The notes under the pieces are model-generated. The model ran no database searches. It was not told the DNA's origin and saw only the letters and a list, made by a program, of their open reading frames with translations. A stretch of DNA of 64,000 bases from Sphingobium sp. HWE2-09 (GTDB lineage Bacteria; Pseudomonadota; Alphaproteobacteria; Sphingomonadales; Sphingomonadaceae): assembly GCF_035989265.1 (NCBI RefSeq), contig NZ_JAYKZX010000003.1, positions 2,108,001-2,172,000 on the forward strand, read 5' to 3'. Each line of letters begins with the position of its first letter. Position 1 is the stretch's first letter. Both the position numbers and the translations under genes were made by a program. Of this stretch, positions 21,066 to 56,647 are shown one piece after another.

Positions 21066-21152
21066 CTCCGTCATCCCAGCGAACGCTGGGATCTCTCTTT
21101 CTTCTCAACGTCCCAGGAAGAAGGAGATGCCAGCCTTCGCTGGCATGACGAA
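21066..21152. repeat. hairpin repeats, family D-related
   Basis: GTCATCCCAGCG/CGCTGGGAT and ATGCCAGC/GCTGGCAT form two hairpins that face each other across a purine-rich spacer, between dedA and gshB. Only the outer GTCAT/ATGAC ends match the other family D copies closely. Confidence 0.6.
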
Positions 21153-22154: not shown

Positions 22155-22309
22155 CCGTTCGCCCTGAGCGAAGTCGAAGGGCTCCGCCGAGCGTTAGCGA
22201 GGTGCTTTGCCTTCGCTTGCGCTCAGGCCAGGGCTTCGACTTCACCTTTGGTGAAGTTTACCCTGAGCGCCTGCTGCAAGCAGGCAGTCGAAGGGCTCAG
22301 CCCGAACGG
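22155..22309. repeat. palindromic repeat, family B (long copy)
   Basis: A 155-bp element bounded by CCGTTCGCCCTGAGCGAAGTC (with CGAAGGGC following) and the inverse GCCCGAACGG end, with internal copies of GACTTC/GAAGTC arms. It separates yraN from gshB. Same family: 34067-34147, 52712-52810, 53997-54058 and 56549-56647. Confidence 0.75.
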
Positions 22310-26623: not shown

Positions 26624-26690
26624 GTGTTCCCGCGAAGGCGGGAACCCAGTTCGGGCGGCGGGACTGGGTTCCCGCCTGCGCGGGAACACG
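26624..26690. repeat. palindromic repeats, family A (facing pair)
   Basis: GTGTTCCCGCGAAGGCGGGAAC and GTTCCCGCCTGCGCGGGAAC lie head to head around CCCAGTTCGGGC. They occupy the divergent promoter region between btuC (starts 26589) and btuF (starts 26712). Confidence 0.75.
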
Positions 26691-31002: not shown

Positions 31003-33849
31003 CTATTCCGCCGCTTCCAACGGCGCGATGCGGCGGCTCTGACGCGCCTGATCGGCATAATCCTGCTGCCAGTCGCTGGGGCCGTTGGACGCCATCACCT
31101 GCACCGCCGTCACCTTATATTCCGGGCAGTTGGTGGCCCAGTCGCTATAATCGGTGGTGATGACATTCGCCTGTGTCTCGGGATGGTGGAAAGTCGTATA
31201 GACCACCCCCGGCGCGACCCGCGCAGTGATCAACGCGCGCAGCGTCGTCTCCCCCGCCCGGCTGCGCAGCGTCACCCAGTCGCCATCCTTCAAACCCCGA
31301 TTGTCCGCATCGCTCGGATGGATTTCCAGCCGATCCTCCGGGTGCCAGGCCGTATTGGCGGTCCGCCGCGTCTGCGCCCCGACATTATAATGGCTCAATA
31401 TCCGCCCGGTCGTCAGCAACAGCGGGAATCGCGGCCCGGTCTTCTCGTCGGTCGGCACATAGTCGGTGACGACGAACTTGCCCTTCCCCCGCACGAATCC
31501 GTCCCTGTGCATGGTCGGCGTGCCGTCAGGCGCGCTGTCATTGGCCGGCCACTGCAGCGACCCTTCCGCCTCCAGCCGATCATAATGCACGCCCGCAAAA
31601 GTCGGCGTCAGCGCCGCAATCTCGTCCATGATCTGCGCTGGATGATCGTAGGTCCACGCCAAACCCATGGCGTTCGCCACCAATTGCACGATCTCCCAAT
31701 CGGCATAGCCGTTCAGTGGCGCCATCACCTTGCGCACCCGCTGGATGCGCCGCTCCGCATTGGTGAAGGTGCCGTCCTTTTCCAGGAAGGTCGATCCGGG
31801 CAGGAAGACATGCGCATAATTGGCGGTTTCGTTGAGGAACAGGTCCTGCACCACCACGCATTCCATCGCCGCCAGACCGGCCGCGACATGCTTGGTATTG
31901 GGATCGGACTGGAGGATATCCTCCCCCTGCACGAACAGCCCCTTGAACGTCCCGTCCGTCGCCGCGTCCAGCATATTGGGAATACGCAACCCCGGCTCGG
32001 CATCCAGCGCCACGCCCCATGCCTGCTCGAACAACTGGCGCGTCGCGGTGTCGGACACATGACGATAGCCGCTAAATTCATGCGGGAAGCTGCCCATGTC
32101 GCACGCCCCCTGCACATTATTCTGGCCTCGCAGCGGGTTCACCCCTACGCCCTCCCGCCCGACATTGCCGGTCGCCATGGCGAGGTTGGCGATCGCCATG
32201 ACGGTCGAAGACCCCTGGCTATGCTCGGTCACGCCCAATCCATAATAGATCGCGCCATTGCCGCCAGTCGCATAGAGCCGCGCCGCCGCGCGCACCTCGT
32301 CCGCCTTCACCCCCGTCAGCGGCTCGATCGCCTCGGGCGACCGCGCCGCCTCCGACACGAACTCCGCCCAATCGGCAAACTCGTCCCAGTCGCACCGTTC
32401 GCGAATGAAGGCTTCGTCATACAACTTCTCGGTCACGATCACATGCGCCATCGCGGTCAGCATCGCGACATTGGTGCCCGGCCGTAAGGGGAGATGATGT
32501 TCCGCCTCGACATGCGGCGATTTCACCAGATCGGTCCGGCGCGGGTCCATCACGATCAGCTTGGCGCCCTGCCGCAACCGACGCTTCATGCGGCTCGCGA
32601 ACACCGGATGCCCGTCGGTCGGATTGGCGCCGATCACCAGGATCACGTCGGCCTGCATCACGCTGTCGAAATCCTGCGTCCCCGCGGACGTGCCGAAGGT
32701 CTGGCTCAACCCATAGCCGGTCGGCGAGTGACATACCCGCGCGCAGGTATCGACATTATTATTGCCGAACCCCTGCCGGATCAGCTTCTGGACCAGGAAC
32801 GTCTCCTCATTGGTGCAACGGCTCGACGTAATCCCGCCGATGCTCCGCGTGCCATATTTCCCTTGAATGCGCCGAAACTCCGACGCGGTATAGGCGATCG
32901 CCTCCTCCCACGACACTTCGCGCCACGGCTCGCGCACCGACGCGCGGATCATCGGGTTGAGGATACGATCCTGATGCTGGGCATAGCCCCAGGCGAACCG
33001 CCCCTTGACGCAACTATGGCCGCGATTGGCTTTGCCGTCCTTCCACGGCACCATCCGCACCAGTTCCTCGCCCCGCATTTCCGCGCGGAACGTGCAACCC
33101 ACCCCGCAATAGGCGCAGGTGGTGACGACCGCCCGGTCGGGCGTGCCGATTTCTACCACGCTCTTCTCGATCAGCGACGCCGTCGGGCAGGCCTGCACAC
33201 AAGCCCCGCAGGACACGCATTCGGACCCCAGAAAATCCTCGCCCTGCGACGCCGATACCTTGGAATCGAAGCCCATCCCCGCGATCGTCAGCGCGAACGT
33301 CCCCTGCACCTCGTCGCACGCCCGCACGCAGCGCGAACAGACGATGCACTTGCTGGGATCGAAATCGAAATAGGGGTTCGACTGGTCCTTCGCCTGCCCC
33401 ATATTGGTCGCGCCATCATAGCCATAGCGCACGTCGCGCAGGCCCACCGCGCCTGCCTGATCCTGTAATTCGCAATCGCCATTCGCGCCGCAGGTCAGGC
33501 AATCGAGCGGATGGTCGGAGATATAAAGCTCCATCACCCCGCGCCGCAGCTGCTTCAGCCGCTCCGTCTGCGTCCGCACCACCATGCCCTCGGCGACCGG
33601 CGTGGTGCAGGATGCGGGATAGCCATTGCGCCCCTCCACCTCTACCAGACACAGGCGGCACGACCCGAAACTCTCGATAGTGTCGGTCGCGCATAGTTTG
33701 GGGATCGCCCCGCCCATCAGCGACGCCGCGCGCATGATGCTGGTGCCCTCGGGCAGGGTGACGCTCTGCCCGTCGATGGTCAACGTCACGCTCCTGCCCG
33801 TCGCAATCGCCGCCGGGGTGCCATGATCGGTTTCGCGGGAAAAGCTCAT
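31003..33849 (-). CDS. fdsA: NAD-dependent formate dehydrogenase, alpha (catalytic) subunit
   Basis: This 948-residue protein starts at ATG 33849, overlapping the fdsB stop by 4 bp. It has, in order, a [2Fe-2S] domain (about 15-100, with ESFGSCRLCLVEVEGRNGYP), a His/Cys cluster (HPLDCLTCGANGDCELQD), two [4Fe-4S] sites (CIVCSRCVRACDEV, CVSCGACVQACPT), another cluster (CAYCGVGCTFRAEM), and the molybdopterin domain. The active-site ligand is cysteine in DTCARVCHSPTGYGL, so no selenocysteine is required. C-terminal signatures VTEHSQGSSTVMAIAN and GRILSHYNVGAQTRR fit bis-MGD formate dehydrogenase. It oxidises formate to CO2 in the cytoplasm, passing electrons to FdsB/G. Confidence 0.97.
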   Translation of the reverse strand: MSFSRETDHGTPAAIATGRSVTLTIDGQSVTLPEGTSIMRAASLMGGAIPKLCATDTIESFGSCRLCLVEVEGRNGYPASCTTPVAEGMVVRTQTERLKQLRRGVMELYISDHPLDCLTCGANGDCELQDQAGAVGLRDVRYGYDGATNMGQAKDQSNPYFDFDPSKCIVCSRCVRACDEVQGTFALTIAGMGFDSKVSASQGEDFLGSECVSCGACVQACPTASLIEKSVVEIGTPDRAVVTTCAYCGVGCTFRAEMRGEELVRMVPWKDGKANRGHSCVKGRFAWGYAQHQDRILNPMIRASVREPWREVSWEEAIAYTASEFRRIQGKYGTRSIGGITSSRCTNEETFLVQKLIRQGFGNNNVDTCARVCHSPTGYGLSQTFGTSAGTQDFDSVMQADVILVIGANPTDGHPVFASRMKRRLRQGAKLIVMDPRRTDLVKSPHVEAEHHLPLRPGTNVAMLTAMAHVIVTEKLYDEAFIRERCDWDEFADWAEFVSEAARSPEAIEPLTGVKADEVRAAARLYATGGNGAIYYGLGVTEHSQGSSTVMAIANLAMATGNVGREGVGVNPLRGQNNVQGACDMGSFPHEFSGYRHVSDTATRQLFEQAWGVALDAEPGLRIPNMLDAATDGTFKGLFVQGEDILQSDPNTKHVAAGLAAMECVVVQDLFLNETANYAHVFLPGSTFLEKDGTFTNAERRIQRVRKVMAPLNGYADWEIVQLVANAMGLAWTYDHPAQIMDEIAALTPTFAGVHYDRLEAEGSLQWPANDSAPDGTPTMHRDGFVRGKGKFVVTDYVPTDEKTGPRFPLLLTTGRILSHYNVGAQTRRTANTAWHPEDRLEIHPSDADNRGLKDGDWVTLRSRAGETTLRALITARVAPGVVYTTFHHPETQANVITTDYSDWATNCPEYKVTAVQVMASNGPSDWQQDYADQARQSRRIAPLEAAE

Positions 33850-35486
33850 GCCGCCGCCTCCTTGATGGGCGCAGCAGCGCCGAAATCCTCGGGAAAATGA
33901 TCGAGCGCACTCAGCACGGGATAGGGCGTGAAGCCCCCCAGCGCACAAAGCGACCCATATTTCATCGTATCAGCCAGATCGCGTAGCAGACTGGTCTGCG
34001 CTTCAATCGACACGTCGATCCGATCCGGCGTGCGCGAATAAAGGGCTTTATCCAAATACCCCTCCACCGTTCGGGCTGAGCCTGTCGAAGCCCCTCCCTT
34101 CTCTTGCGAAGAAAAGGAAAGCCCTTCGACAGGCTCAGGGCGAACGGAGTGAGACACATCGCGCGCCCCAATAATCCGATCCATAATCTCCACCCCCCGC
34201 GTCGATCCGATCCGACAGGGCGTGCATTTCCCGCAACTCTCCGCCGCGCAAAATTCCATCGCGAAACGCGCCATATGCGCCATGTCCACGCTATCGTCGA
34301 ACACGGTGATCCCGGCATGGCCGATCAAGCCGCCCGCCGCCGCGAACGCCTCATAGTCGAACGGCAGATGGAACATGGACGGCGGAAAATAGGCTCCCAA
34401 CGGCCCGCCCACCTGCACCGCCCGCACCGGCCGCCCGCTCGCCGTCCCGCCGCCGATGTCATTCACCAGTTCACCCAGCGTGATGCCGAACCCAATCTCG
34501 TACAGCCCGCCATGCCGCACATTGCCCGCCAACTGCACCGGCATCGTGCCGCGCGACCGCCCGAACCCGACCGCCGCATAGGCCTCCGCCCCCTGCGCCA
34601 ATATGAAAGGCACCGCCGCCAAACTCAGCACATTGTTGATGACAGTCGGCTGCCCGAACAGCCCTTTAAGCGCGGGCAAGGGCGGCTTGGCCCGCACCTG
34701 GCCCCGCTTCCCCTCGATCGAATTGAGCAGCGCCGTCTCCTCGCCACAGACATAAGCGCCCGCCCCCTCGCGCACCTCCAGCGTGAAGGGCGCGACGATA
34801 TCCGCCGACGCCATAATCGCCGCGCGCATGGTCGCGATGCAGAAGGGATATTCCGACCGGATATAGATATAGCCATGGCCCGCCCCCACCGCATGGGCGG
34901 CGATCGCCATCCCCTCGATCAGGCCATAGGGGTCGCCCTCCATCAGCATCCGGTCGGCAAAGGTGCCGCTGTCGCCCTCATCCGCATTGCAGACGATGAA
35001 TTTCTCGCCAGCAGGCGCATCCAGCACCGTCTGCCATTTGATGCCTGTCGGAAAACCTGCCCCGCCACGCCCGCGCAAACCCGACGCCTTGACCGCATCG
35101 ACCACGGTTTGCGGCTCCAATGTCCGCGCCGCCTCCAGCCCGGCCCAGCCCCCATGCGCTGCATAATCGGCAAGGCTGAGCGGATCGATCACTCCGCAGC
35201 GCGCAAAGGTAAACCGCTGCTGCCCCGCAAAAAAGGGCAGCTTATCCACCACCCCCAGCCGCGCCCCATGCGTCCCGTCCAGCACAGCCGCCACATCGTC
35301 CGGCCCGACCGGCCCAAAGCCGATCCGCCCGTCCGCCGTCTCCACCTCGACCAGCGGCTCGATGCTGAACAGCCCGCGCGACCCGGTCCGCACCACCTCG
35401 CACCCGGCCTCCGCAAAGGCCCGCGCCACATCGTCTGCGCCCAGCGCGACGGATGCCATGTCGCGGCTAACAAACACCCGGCTCAT
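33846..35486 (-). CDS. fdsB: NAD-dependent formate dehydrogenase, beta subunit, with in-frame repeat insertion
   Basis: This 546-residue NuoF-like subunit holds FMN, NAD and a [4Fe-4S] cluster. It has an N-terminal thioredoxin-like region (about 1-90), SGLRGRGGAGFPTGIKW, NADEGDSGTFADR, GAGAYVCGEETALLNSIEGK and the cluster site SCGKCTPCRIG, with its fourth cysteine in SLCALGG. Between those two cluster segments lies an 81-bp palindromic repeat (34067-34147) read in frame as SVRPEPVEG...STGSARTVEG, roughly residues 447-474. Known FdsB proteins have only a short loop here. The frame stays open to the normal C-terminus. The ATG at 35486 overlaps the fdsG stop by 4 bp. Confidence 0.95.
   Translation of the reverse strand: MSRVFVSRDMASVALGADDVARAFAEAGCEVVRTGSRGLFSIEPLVEVETADGRIGFGPVGPDDVAAVLDGTHGARLGVVDKLPFFAGQQRFTFARCGVIDPLSLADYAAHGGWAGLEAARTLEPQTVVDAVKASGLRGRGGAGFPTGIKWQTVLDAPAGEKFIVCNADEGDSGTFADRMLMEGDPYGLIEGMAIAAHAVGAGHGYIYIRSEYPFCIATMRAAIMASADIVAPFTLEVREGAGAYVCGEETALLNSIEGKRGQVRAKPPLPALKGLFGQPTVINNVLSLAAVPFILAQGAEAYAAVGFGRSRGTMPVQLAGNVRHGGLYEIGFGITLGELVNDIGGGTASGRPVRAVQVGGPLGAYFPPSMFHLPFDYEAFAAAGGLIGHAGITVFDDSVDMAHMARFAMEFCAAESCGKCTPCRIGSTRGVEIMDRIIGARDVSHSVRPEPVEGLSFSSQEKGGASTGSARTVEGYLDKALYSRTPDRIDVSIEAQTSLLRDLADTMKYGSLCALGGFTPYPVLSALDHFPEDFGAAAPIKEAAA
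34067..34147. repeat. family B palindrome inserted in frame within fdsB
   Basis: CCGTTCGGGCTGAGCCTGTC and the following GAAG (34067-34090) pair with the inverse arm at 34124-34147, 22 of 24 positions matching, around a 33-nt loop. The total length is 81 bp, exactly 27 codons. The arms match the intergenic family B copies at 56549-56647 and elsewhere in this window. Confidence 0.9.
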
Positions 35487-35935
35487 GCCGCCACCTCCAG
35501 CGCGATCCGCTCCAGCGCCTCCGCATCGATCTGCGCCACCGGCCGCCCGTCGACCAGCGCATTGGGGCCGATCGCACACAGGCCCAGGCAATAGACCGGC
35601 TCCAGCGCCAACTGCCCGTCGGCCCGCGTCTCGCCCATCGCCACGCCCAGCCGCCTGGCCGCCGCCGCCTCGATTGCCGCGCCGCCCCGCGCCTGGCAGC
35701 TTTCCGCCCGGCACAGCTTCACGACATGTCGCCCCGGCGCGACCCGCCGAAAATCATGGTAGAAGGTGACGACCCCATGCACGTCCGCGCGGCTGAGGTT
35801 CAGCGCCTTGGCGATCACCGGCACCACTGCATCGTCGATATGGCCCGCTTCCGCCTGCACCGCATGGAGCAGCGGCAACAGCCGGTCCCGCGTCGCGCCA
35901 TGCCGCGCGGTCCACGCGCCGATAAACTCTTCCAT
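35483..35935 (-). CDS. fdsG: NAD-dependent formate dehydrogenase, gamma subunit
   Basis: This 150-residue NuoE-like protein starts at ATG 35935 (MEEFIGAWTARHG). It has an N-terminal helical bundle (LPLLHAVQAEAGHIDDAVVP) and a thioredoxin-fold [2Fe-2S] domain with KLCRAESCQARGG (Cys-x4-Cys) and PVYCLGLCAIGPNALVDG (Cys-x3-Cys). It relays electrons between FdsA and FdsB. It is the first gene of the formate dehydrogenase operon, reading leftwards, with its promoter region in the 100 bp between it and the LysR gene. Confidence 0.95.
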   Translation of the reverse strand: MEEFIGAWTARHGATRDRLLPLLHAVQAEAGHIDDAVVPVIAKALNLSRADVHGVVTFYHDFRRVAPGRHVVKLCRAESCQARGGAAIEAAAARRLGVAMGETRADGQLALEPVYCLGLCAIGPNALVDGRPVAQIDAEALERIALEVAA

Positions 35936-36017
35936 CACACCCTGCCTTTTTGGCCCTGTTGTGCGGGCGATCCTGATCGCGCACGGCCGTAGGGTCAAAT
36001 CGAAGACGGATATCTGC

Positions 36018-52711: not shown

Positions 52712-52810
52712 CCGTTCGCCCTGAGCGAAGTCGAAGGGCCAGGCAGAGCCGAAGGCGAAGCCGCTTCGCTCCGCTCAGCGGAAGGCTTCGACTTCGCTCA
52801 GCCCGAACGG
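52712..52810. repeat. palindromic repeat, family B
   Basis: A 99-bp element with outer arms CCGTTCGCCCTGAGCGAAGTC and the inverse GACTTCGCTCAGCCCGAACGG, and a second stem GAAGCCGCTTCGCTCCGCTC inside. It fills the divergent promoter region between the DUF2066-like gene (starts 52699) and purM (starts 52880). Confidence 0.8.
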
Positions 52811-53996: not shown

Positions 53997-54058
53997 CCGT
54001 TCGGTTCGAGCTTGTCGAGAACGGCGCGCTGAGTTCTCCACAAGCTCGAACCGAACGG
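53997..54058. repeat. palindromic repeat, family B (short copy)
   Basis: CCGTTCGGTTCGAGCTTGTC at the left and the inverse CAAGCTCGAACCGAACGG at the right, with GAGAAC/GTTCTC inside, between purM and purN. It could form a stable hairpin in a purMN transcript and modulate expression of the second gene. Confidence 0.8.
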
Positions 54059-56548: not shown

Positions 56549-56647
56549 CCGTTCGGGCTGAGCTTGTCGAAGCCTTCGCCTGAACGTAGTGAAGGCAAAA
56601 CCTCACGCCGTTCGGTCGAGCCATTCGACGTCGCTCAGGACGAACGG
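56549..56647. repeat. palindromic repeat, family B
   Basis: CCGTTCGGGCTGAGCTTGTC (with GAAGCC following) at the left and GACGTCGCTCAGGACGAACGG at the right, with CCTTCGCCTGAACG-like inner arms. It fills the gap between the ABC ATPase gene and nadB. Its left arm is the closest match in the window to the element inside fdsB. Confidence 0.8.

Follow-up and report, generated by a model that had tools for sequence, protein, structure and literature searches.

An in-frame REP dimer in the formate dehydrogenase gene fdsB of Sphingobium lies in a linker occupied by several REP families

In Sphingobium sp. HWE2-09, the gene for the beta subunit of NAD-dependent formate dehydrogenase, fdsB, carries in frame an 81-bp palindrome composed of two REP hairpins, and the same linker of FdsB is filled in other sphingomonads by elements of several REP families. 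With a probability of roughly 0.8, we think that non-autonomous REP dimers of this kind, spread by putative transposition, survive inside genes only in frame and at a few tolerant linkers. The original prediction, made from the window (the whole 64-kb stretch of DNA analysed), had taken the palindrome for a mobile element tolerated by the protein and likened it to the Rickettsia palindromic elements, reportedly described by Ogata in 2000 and 2002.

Results

The locus has the following features.

31003..33849, minus strand: fdsA, molybdopterin subunit (start picked by eye)
33846..35486, minus strand: fdsB, beta subunit of NAD-dependent formate dehydrogenase (FMN and 4Fe-4S), 546 aa, frame intact
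35483..35998, minus strand: fdsG, 2Fe-2S thioredoxin-like subunit (start provisional)
33954..34235, minus strand: FdsB region from CGKCTPC (residue 418) to just before SLCALGG (residue 512), containing the recurrently occupied linker
34067..34147: family-B REP dimer, 81 bp, in frame in fdsB, encoding FdsB residues about 447-473, VRPEPVEGLSFSSQEKGGASTGSART
34067..34090, plus-strand letters: left arm, CCGTTCGGG... type
34091..34123: variable interior of the fdsB dimer, 33 nt
34124..34147, plus-strand letters: right arm, CC type on the minus strand, 5'-CCGTTCGCCC

The palindrome stands exactly where it had been predicted, at 34067-34147 inside fdsB, with 24-nt outer arms complementary at 22 of 24 positions; with a repeat tool the arms reach 39 nt at 82%. 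Its arm pattern matches the window four times, compared with a mean of 0.00 in 100 shuffles, and the RNA folds at -57 kcal/mol, whereas shuffles give -29.3 (z -8.7). In FdsB, residue 447 is the first of SVRPEPVEG and residue 467 the first of STGSARTVEG. The proposed placement between the CxxCxxC site and the last cluster cysteine was borne out (C418, C421 and C424 on one side, C514 on the other), as was the intactness of frame and catalytic motifs: the 546-aa frame is open, and these four cysteines are invariant in 48 aligned FdsB.

FdsB has the FMN and 4Fe-4S domains of NuoF/FdsB, and its best sequence matches are solved formate dehydrogenase beta subunits from R. capsulatus (6tg9, 9wxb) and C. 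necator (6vw7), the last of which also ranks first in a fold search; the alignments to these structures are interrupted at the insert. Modelling of FdsB with the extra loop, which had been suggested as a check, gave an AlphaFold2 structure with a mean pLDDT of 81, in which residues 446-486 fall below 50 and are flanked by helices 422-441 and 494-511. The insert is thereby predicted to be disordered and to connect two helices within the 4Fe-4S domain, although the alignment of only 48 rows may contribute to the low pLDDT. Other stretches of the model also have low confidence, above all 242-274. On the minus strand, ATGA overlaps join the fdsG stop to the fdsB start and the fdsB stop to the fdsA ATG, and because of these overlaps a frameshifting insert in fdsB would probably also disturb fdsA.

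The palindrome is a REPIN-like dimer, each of whose arms forms a small REP hairpin, because the arms show compensatory CC/GG changes and a CC arm is paired with a GG arm in most dimers. Among 64 arms of the genome, 24 read CC...GGGC and 23 read GG...GCCC, the two variable bases co-varying with the bases across a 13-nt loop. The 27 distinct arms fold as small hairpins with a stem of four pairs, in which pairing reaches 90.7% of cells (shuffles 69.8%) and covariation 0.514 (shuffles 0.209), none of 500 shuffles being as high on either measure; stem columns 7 and 10 are almost invariant through the search pattern itself. Sliding the stem partners by one column lowered the covariation to 0.230 and 0.284. 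Two of the five stem measures do not exceed the shuffles in these 27 arms, namely pairs changed on both sides (2 against 2.2) and further pair types (5 against 4.6). All 26 dimers of the genome consist of inverted REP units around a variable interior, and they comprise 21 CC/GG heterodimers, two with equal arms and three others; the two arm mismatches of the fdsB palindrome are this recurrent asymmetry.

Family B is dispersed through the genome (4.44 Mb, three contigs). At up to three mismatches the arm pattern has 76 matches, with none for the reversed control; they merge to 51 sites, of which 11 have 3-mismatch arms only and are doubtful, leaving 40. The 26 head-to-head dimers measure 60-92 bp between outer pattern ends, and the copies have varied flanks. 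A codon model retrained against antisense ORFs was used to ask which sites with an arm at up to two mismatches have coding-like sequence to their left and right in a single frame; 3 of about 40 sites fell inside genes, all in frame: the fdsB dimer and one arm each in coaBC and glyS (named by NCBIfam at E 1e-127 and 1e-205), the coaBC arm lying between the CoaC and CoaB parts. By this flank coding score the family is predominantly extragenic, as REPINs are. Two further dimers that looked intragenic (L221 and L237), seemingly through shadow ORFs on the antisense strand, were no longer supported once codon-position G+C entered the training, and a 3-mismatch match in pth (L217) was judged to be chance.

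Beyond this genome, the pattern occurs in 89 of the 94 genomes of the genus, own included. In a plasmid collection, 18 records matched at 227 places; 14 of the records are Sphingobium, and the best place lies outside any listed gene in 17 records, the remaining one being unannotated.

The view that further copies lie only between genes does not hold genome-wide, given the in-frame arms in coaBC and glyS, and the window copies on which it drew (22155-22309, 52712-52810, 53997-54058 and 56549-56647) are related 'CCGTTCG' variants. Compared with the B arm, the arm at 56549 has one mismatch and that at 22287 three, and the other two variants are unmatched at up to three. The inner sequences of these four palindromes differ (GAGCGAAGTCGAA and TCGAGCTTGTCGAG types), which marks a wider superfamily. 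The window also holds a CGTC-type REP dimer, of the M/R pattern, at 21069-21150 and, at 94-730 and 26625-26688, several matches (0.83-0.91) to the REP type TGCTCCYGCGAAGGCRGGAGCCC, some as inverted pairs.

The FdsB linker was compared across 149 genomes of the family, 94 of the genus and a named species set, the best 80 loci being kept from the last. Of 127 loci, eight were transposase loci; the other 119 linker regions included 24 duplicate rows, leaving 95 distinct FdsB. The linker stretch spans 35-49 aa in 39 loci from outside the sphingomonads, and some sphingomonads are equally short (for example L064, L067, L077, L118 and L119). Among 32 element-free rows of the 55-row Sphingobium-type tree, 28 have 65-68 aa, and the rest are L056 and L060 (57 aa, other genera), L038 (70 aa) and L178 (85 aa), whose long linker is perhaps a relict. 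No homologous loop is thus common to all relatives of the strain's own FdsB, with 87 aa, and the claim of an in-frame, tolerated palindromic element without a counterpart in many relatives is upheld.

A REP occupies this linker in 26 of the 95 distinct FdsB, called at an arm match of 0.8 or more, with the relict L036 assigned by eye: 15 are of family B, six M, two R, two S and one C. The M, R and C elements start with CGTC and may belong to one superfamily, from which B differs in sequence and stem. The families at this site are dispersed repeats in their own right. The M/R pattern is present in 80 of 94 genomes of the genus and the S pattern in all nine genomes tried, with 8 to 55 matches each; the C pattern has 176 matches in G114, the genome of L114, none in G021, and six in G011 with one in the control.

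On a codon tree of 55 rows, computed without the linker, the six states require at least 12 changes, and inserted versus none at least seven; L195 was left out of this tree (split ORF), and the element-free L188 was lost at a motif filter. A single clade for B is rejected (p-AU 6.3e-94). The protein tree of 95 rows needs 15 state changes, and inserted versus none needs nine. Alleles at 90-92% DNA identity differ in occupancy, L031 having B, L040 having M and L066 none. Arm matches occur in 22 of 55 linkers compared with none in 78,939 bases of remaining fdsB, the reversed control giving none in either, although the M/R, S and C patterns were derived from FdsB linkers themselves, which leaves B as the one family whose focus is unbiased by the choice of pattern. 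In 169,609 bases flanking fdsB in the named loci there were four arm matches and none for the reversed control. The locus L195 (genome G187) has FdsB in two frames, split near residue 206, with an M element in the linker, either through a sequencing error or in a broken gene.

The strain's own fdsB belongs to a clade of six rows (support 100/98). Since all six have B, half of B (L035) or a relict (L036), the insertion probably predates the species of this clade; the element is present in the strain as predicted, yet it is not strain-specific. Between FdsB copies, the arms differ at 0-3 of 44 positions, where the rate of the gene itself would lead to about 4-8; this might reflect selection, re-insertion or gene conversion by copies elsewhere. 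The interior types of the B dimers (33 and 30 nt), L111/L032 versus L141/L142/L033, disagree with the fdsB tree, as if replaced or converted.

The frame is kept, as it is in Rickettsia palindromic elements that enter protein genes. Forward B arms in FdsB, drawn from at least three genera, are read in one phase in 13 of 13 cases (VRPEPVEG type), although many of these rows are related and do not count as independent events; the strain's own coaBC and glyS arms share this phase. All ten two-arm B copies measured in FdsB are 60, 78 or 81 bp long, compared with 9 of 25 dimers of the genome (fdsB included) with a length divisible by three, and divisibility by three is therefore a mark of survival and not a property of the family.

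Recurrent filling was also observed in GlyS, for which the best 30 of 93 genomes with a match were analysed; matches upstream of the start (positions 0-5) were excluded, as were two scoring 0.80, at positions 158 and 782. Two linkers hold M/R, S or B:

Positions 394-423 of the strain's own 821-aa open frame: first GlyS linker
Positions 691-724 of the same frame: second GlyS linker

The first is filled in 17 of 30 loci (nine M/R, eight S) and the second in 13 (seven M/R, four S, two B), so that one or both are filled in 22 of 30 loci; reversed B, M/R and S patterns gave no match in these loci. The first linker of the strain's own GlyS (L218, ORF 395-2857) also holds a SLEGEGR...PHPSPLPVGER peptide, which resembles a further repeat family, probably a common one.

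For CoaBC, the best 30 of 92 genomes with a match were taken and 29 loci parsed. At 0.82 or better, five of the 29 linkers are occupied, one by a B arm (the strain's own) and four by arms of type V (TTCGAGC..GTCGAG), a related CCGTTCG type that is read in another frame as DRLEPNG; L317, with a B arm at 0.80 only, would be a sixth case, and reversed patterns gave no match in the 29 loci. CoaBC was considered a clear counter-example at 2 of 29 and was dropped as such, the type V arm, outside the first patterns, being present in four more linkers. As far as these alignments go, the CoaBC linker is filled less often and by two related CCGTTCG types only, and strong recurrence is not general. The V-type arms lie in the CoaC-CoaB linkers of L308, L311, L315 and L321 (DRLEPNG/DKLEPNG), and other CoaBC rows have FSTSLETNG-like peptides, perhaps relicts read in a different frame. 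When 30 of the 52 M/R matches of the genome, those that had loci, were examined, an in-frame copy was found in ileS; this CGTC-type REP (RHPGESRDP, about 1501-1525 of L279) makes ileS, in addition to glyS, a second tRNA synthetase gene with such an insert. A 2-mismatch match in the same scan (L296) was judged to be chance.

REPINs are accompanied by a RAYT (Y1 transposase) in the same genome, and none was detected here: PF01797 (Y1_Tnp) had no match in the genome, in a search that detected controls in 5 of 14 and that a very divergent copy could escape. Among the 94 genomes of the genus, 23 have a Y1_Tnp match, and its presence shows no link with family-B copy number (medians 49 and 33, p = 0.33). 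RAYT was rejected as the mover, as the genome itself has no match and no REP arm accompanies the eight best-scoring, IS200-like Y1_Tnp loci (L170-L177) of 32 listed. Weaker RAYT-like matches are present in G167, G224 and G225; the one at G225:C2:3348664-3349026, in one of the closest FdsB relatives, is a weak Y1_Tnp match with an internal stop, possibly a lost transposase.

Discussion

We propose that the insert in fdsB is a copy of a dispersed, non-autonomous, REPIN-like dimer of the 'CCGTTCG' family, in which two small hairpin units set head to head make one long palindrome. Copies of family B and of other REP families would have landed across sphingomonad genomes, most surviving family-B copies being those between genes. 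Within genes, only in-frame copies would survive, mainly at a few flexible linkers where about 15-30 extra disordered residues may do little harm. The linker of FdsB and the two of GlyS would have been refilled by different families, with the copies then decaying to relicts. The mobility contained in the original prediction is suggested by comparison among relatives, the genome having no match to the Y1_Tnp family; transposition is the putative route, presumably with a moving enzyme, and the insert is probably neutral for formate dehydrogenase. Conservation of the FdsB arms above that of the gene speaks against this explanation, as it is not what plain drift following a single insertion would produce. 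If fdsB alleles were exchanged between species, some of the recurrence of B could be mimicked, but not the different families.

A more far-reaching reading, possible and in our view rather doubtful, is that the linkers of FdsB and GlyS, and less so that of CoaBC, are standing entry ports. Different families would enter, contribute disordered linkers read in a favoured frame, and later decay and give way to others, the REP pool supplying linker sequence and the arms perhaps being kept uniform by conversion.

It is unlikely that the insert is kept for a function, either as a useful linker peptide or as an mRNA hairpin that adjusts transcript decay or the translational coupling between fdsB and fdsA. 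The slow change of the arms relative to the remaining gene, the invariable reading frame, the very stable hairpin (-57 kcal/mol), which may affect the fdsB mRNA, and the ATGA overlaps at both ends of fdsB would all suit such a role. However, 32 of 55 rows of the Sphingobium-type tree are element-free, the element is partly or mostly gone from L035 and L036, different families sit at the same place, and the conservation of the arms also fits gene conversion or re-insertion from other copies.

We also give little weight to the idea that the linker is a true DNA-level target, such that sequence or structure would steer insertion into this stretch of fdsB and into the GlyS linkers, tolerance coming second. 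In its favour, the forward B, M, R and C cores begin 62-75 nt after the end of CxxCxxC and the S hairpins at 84-86, with none of the cores in the remaining fdsB. Tolerance alone would produce the same focus, however, and the B and CGTC types differ at their ends, the empty linker is itself variable in sequence, and the copies elsewhere in the genome have varied flanks. Palindromes can provoke assembly errors, but we give almost no credence to an artefact of sequencing or assembly, or to a pseudogene, as the identical site is filled by the same element in records of other species (for example L031, L032, L033, L037, L141 and L142) and the frame, the cluster cysteines and the domains of the neighbouring fds genes are all intact.

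The FdsB linker, filled often by different REP families in sequenced relatives, amounts to a natural replicate experiment in which insertion preference can be told apart from survival. The linker lets the cost of a disordered insert of 20-30 residues in an enzyme be measured, and it bears on the way REPs spread where no RAYT is detected. In addition, variable loops of sphingomonad proteins may derive from repeats.

Among known systems, REPINs are the closest in kind. According to Bertels and Rainey (2011; PMC3116915), REPINs or REP doublets are inverted short REP units around a variable interior, dispersed and mostly extragenic, with singles as likely remnants, and the genomes that carry them also encode a RAYT transposase. 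Family B is likewise an inverted, dispersed, mostly extragenic doublet, and the alternative hairpin and 'clover' folds described there fit its CC and GG arms; unlike those REPINs, it stands in a genome without a Y1_Tnp match, and some of its copies lie in frame inside genes. The analogy with Rickettsia palindromic elements holds as a parallel and not as the nearest relationship: according to the review PMC10969869, these too are palindromic repeats that keep the frame of the protein-coding genes they enter and are considered compatible with protein function, and that description sets them apart by a length of about 150 bp and by nearly half of them lying inside genes, against 3 of about 40 sites for family B.

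Neither family-B arm strings nor the peptides encoded by the arms were matched in a literature search, and for shorter arm strings no title among the matches listed concerns a family-B repeat. Among the papers listed, and in the text of Di Nocera (2013) outside its supplement, we recognised no report of family B or of one linker filled by several REP families over many species. In-frame REPs as a class are not new, being described for Rickettsia and by Di Nocera (2013; PMC3733652). CGTC REPs are reported there from S. chlorophenolicum and S. wittichii and without a dedicated transposase, and so are REPs inside genes of sphingomonads, among them tRNA synthetase genes of E. litoralis and S. alaskensis. 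Like these CGTC REPs, the M, R and C types in FdsB start with CGTC and are arranged as inverted dimers. Family B, by contrast, has neither a CGTC nor a GTAG end: CGTC-tagged REPs have an unpaired CGTC, TGTC or CCTC end, a stem of 8-9 bp and a loop of 4-5 nt, whereas family B starts with CCGTTC and has a 4-bp stem and a 13-nt loop, and where GTAG-tagged REPs have an unpaired GTAG at the end, its ends read, by eye, CCGTTCG and GAAGGGC or GAAGCCC. Di Nocera (2013) gives one case of different REPs at about one site, in recB of two Xanthomonas species; compared with that single shared site, the occurrence of five types in one FdsB linker over many species is a recurrence that, on present sequence comparisons, seems to be new.
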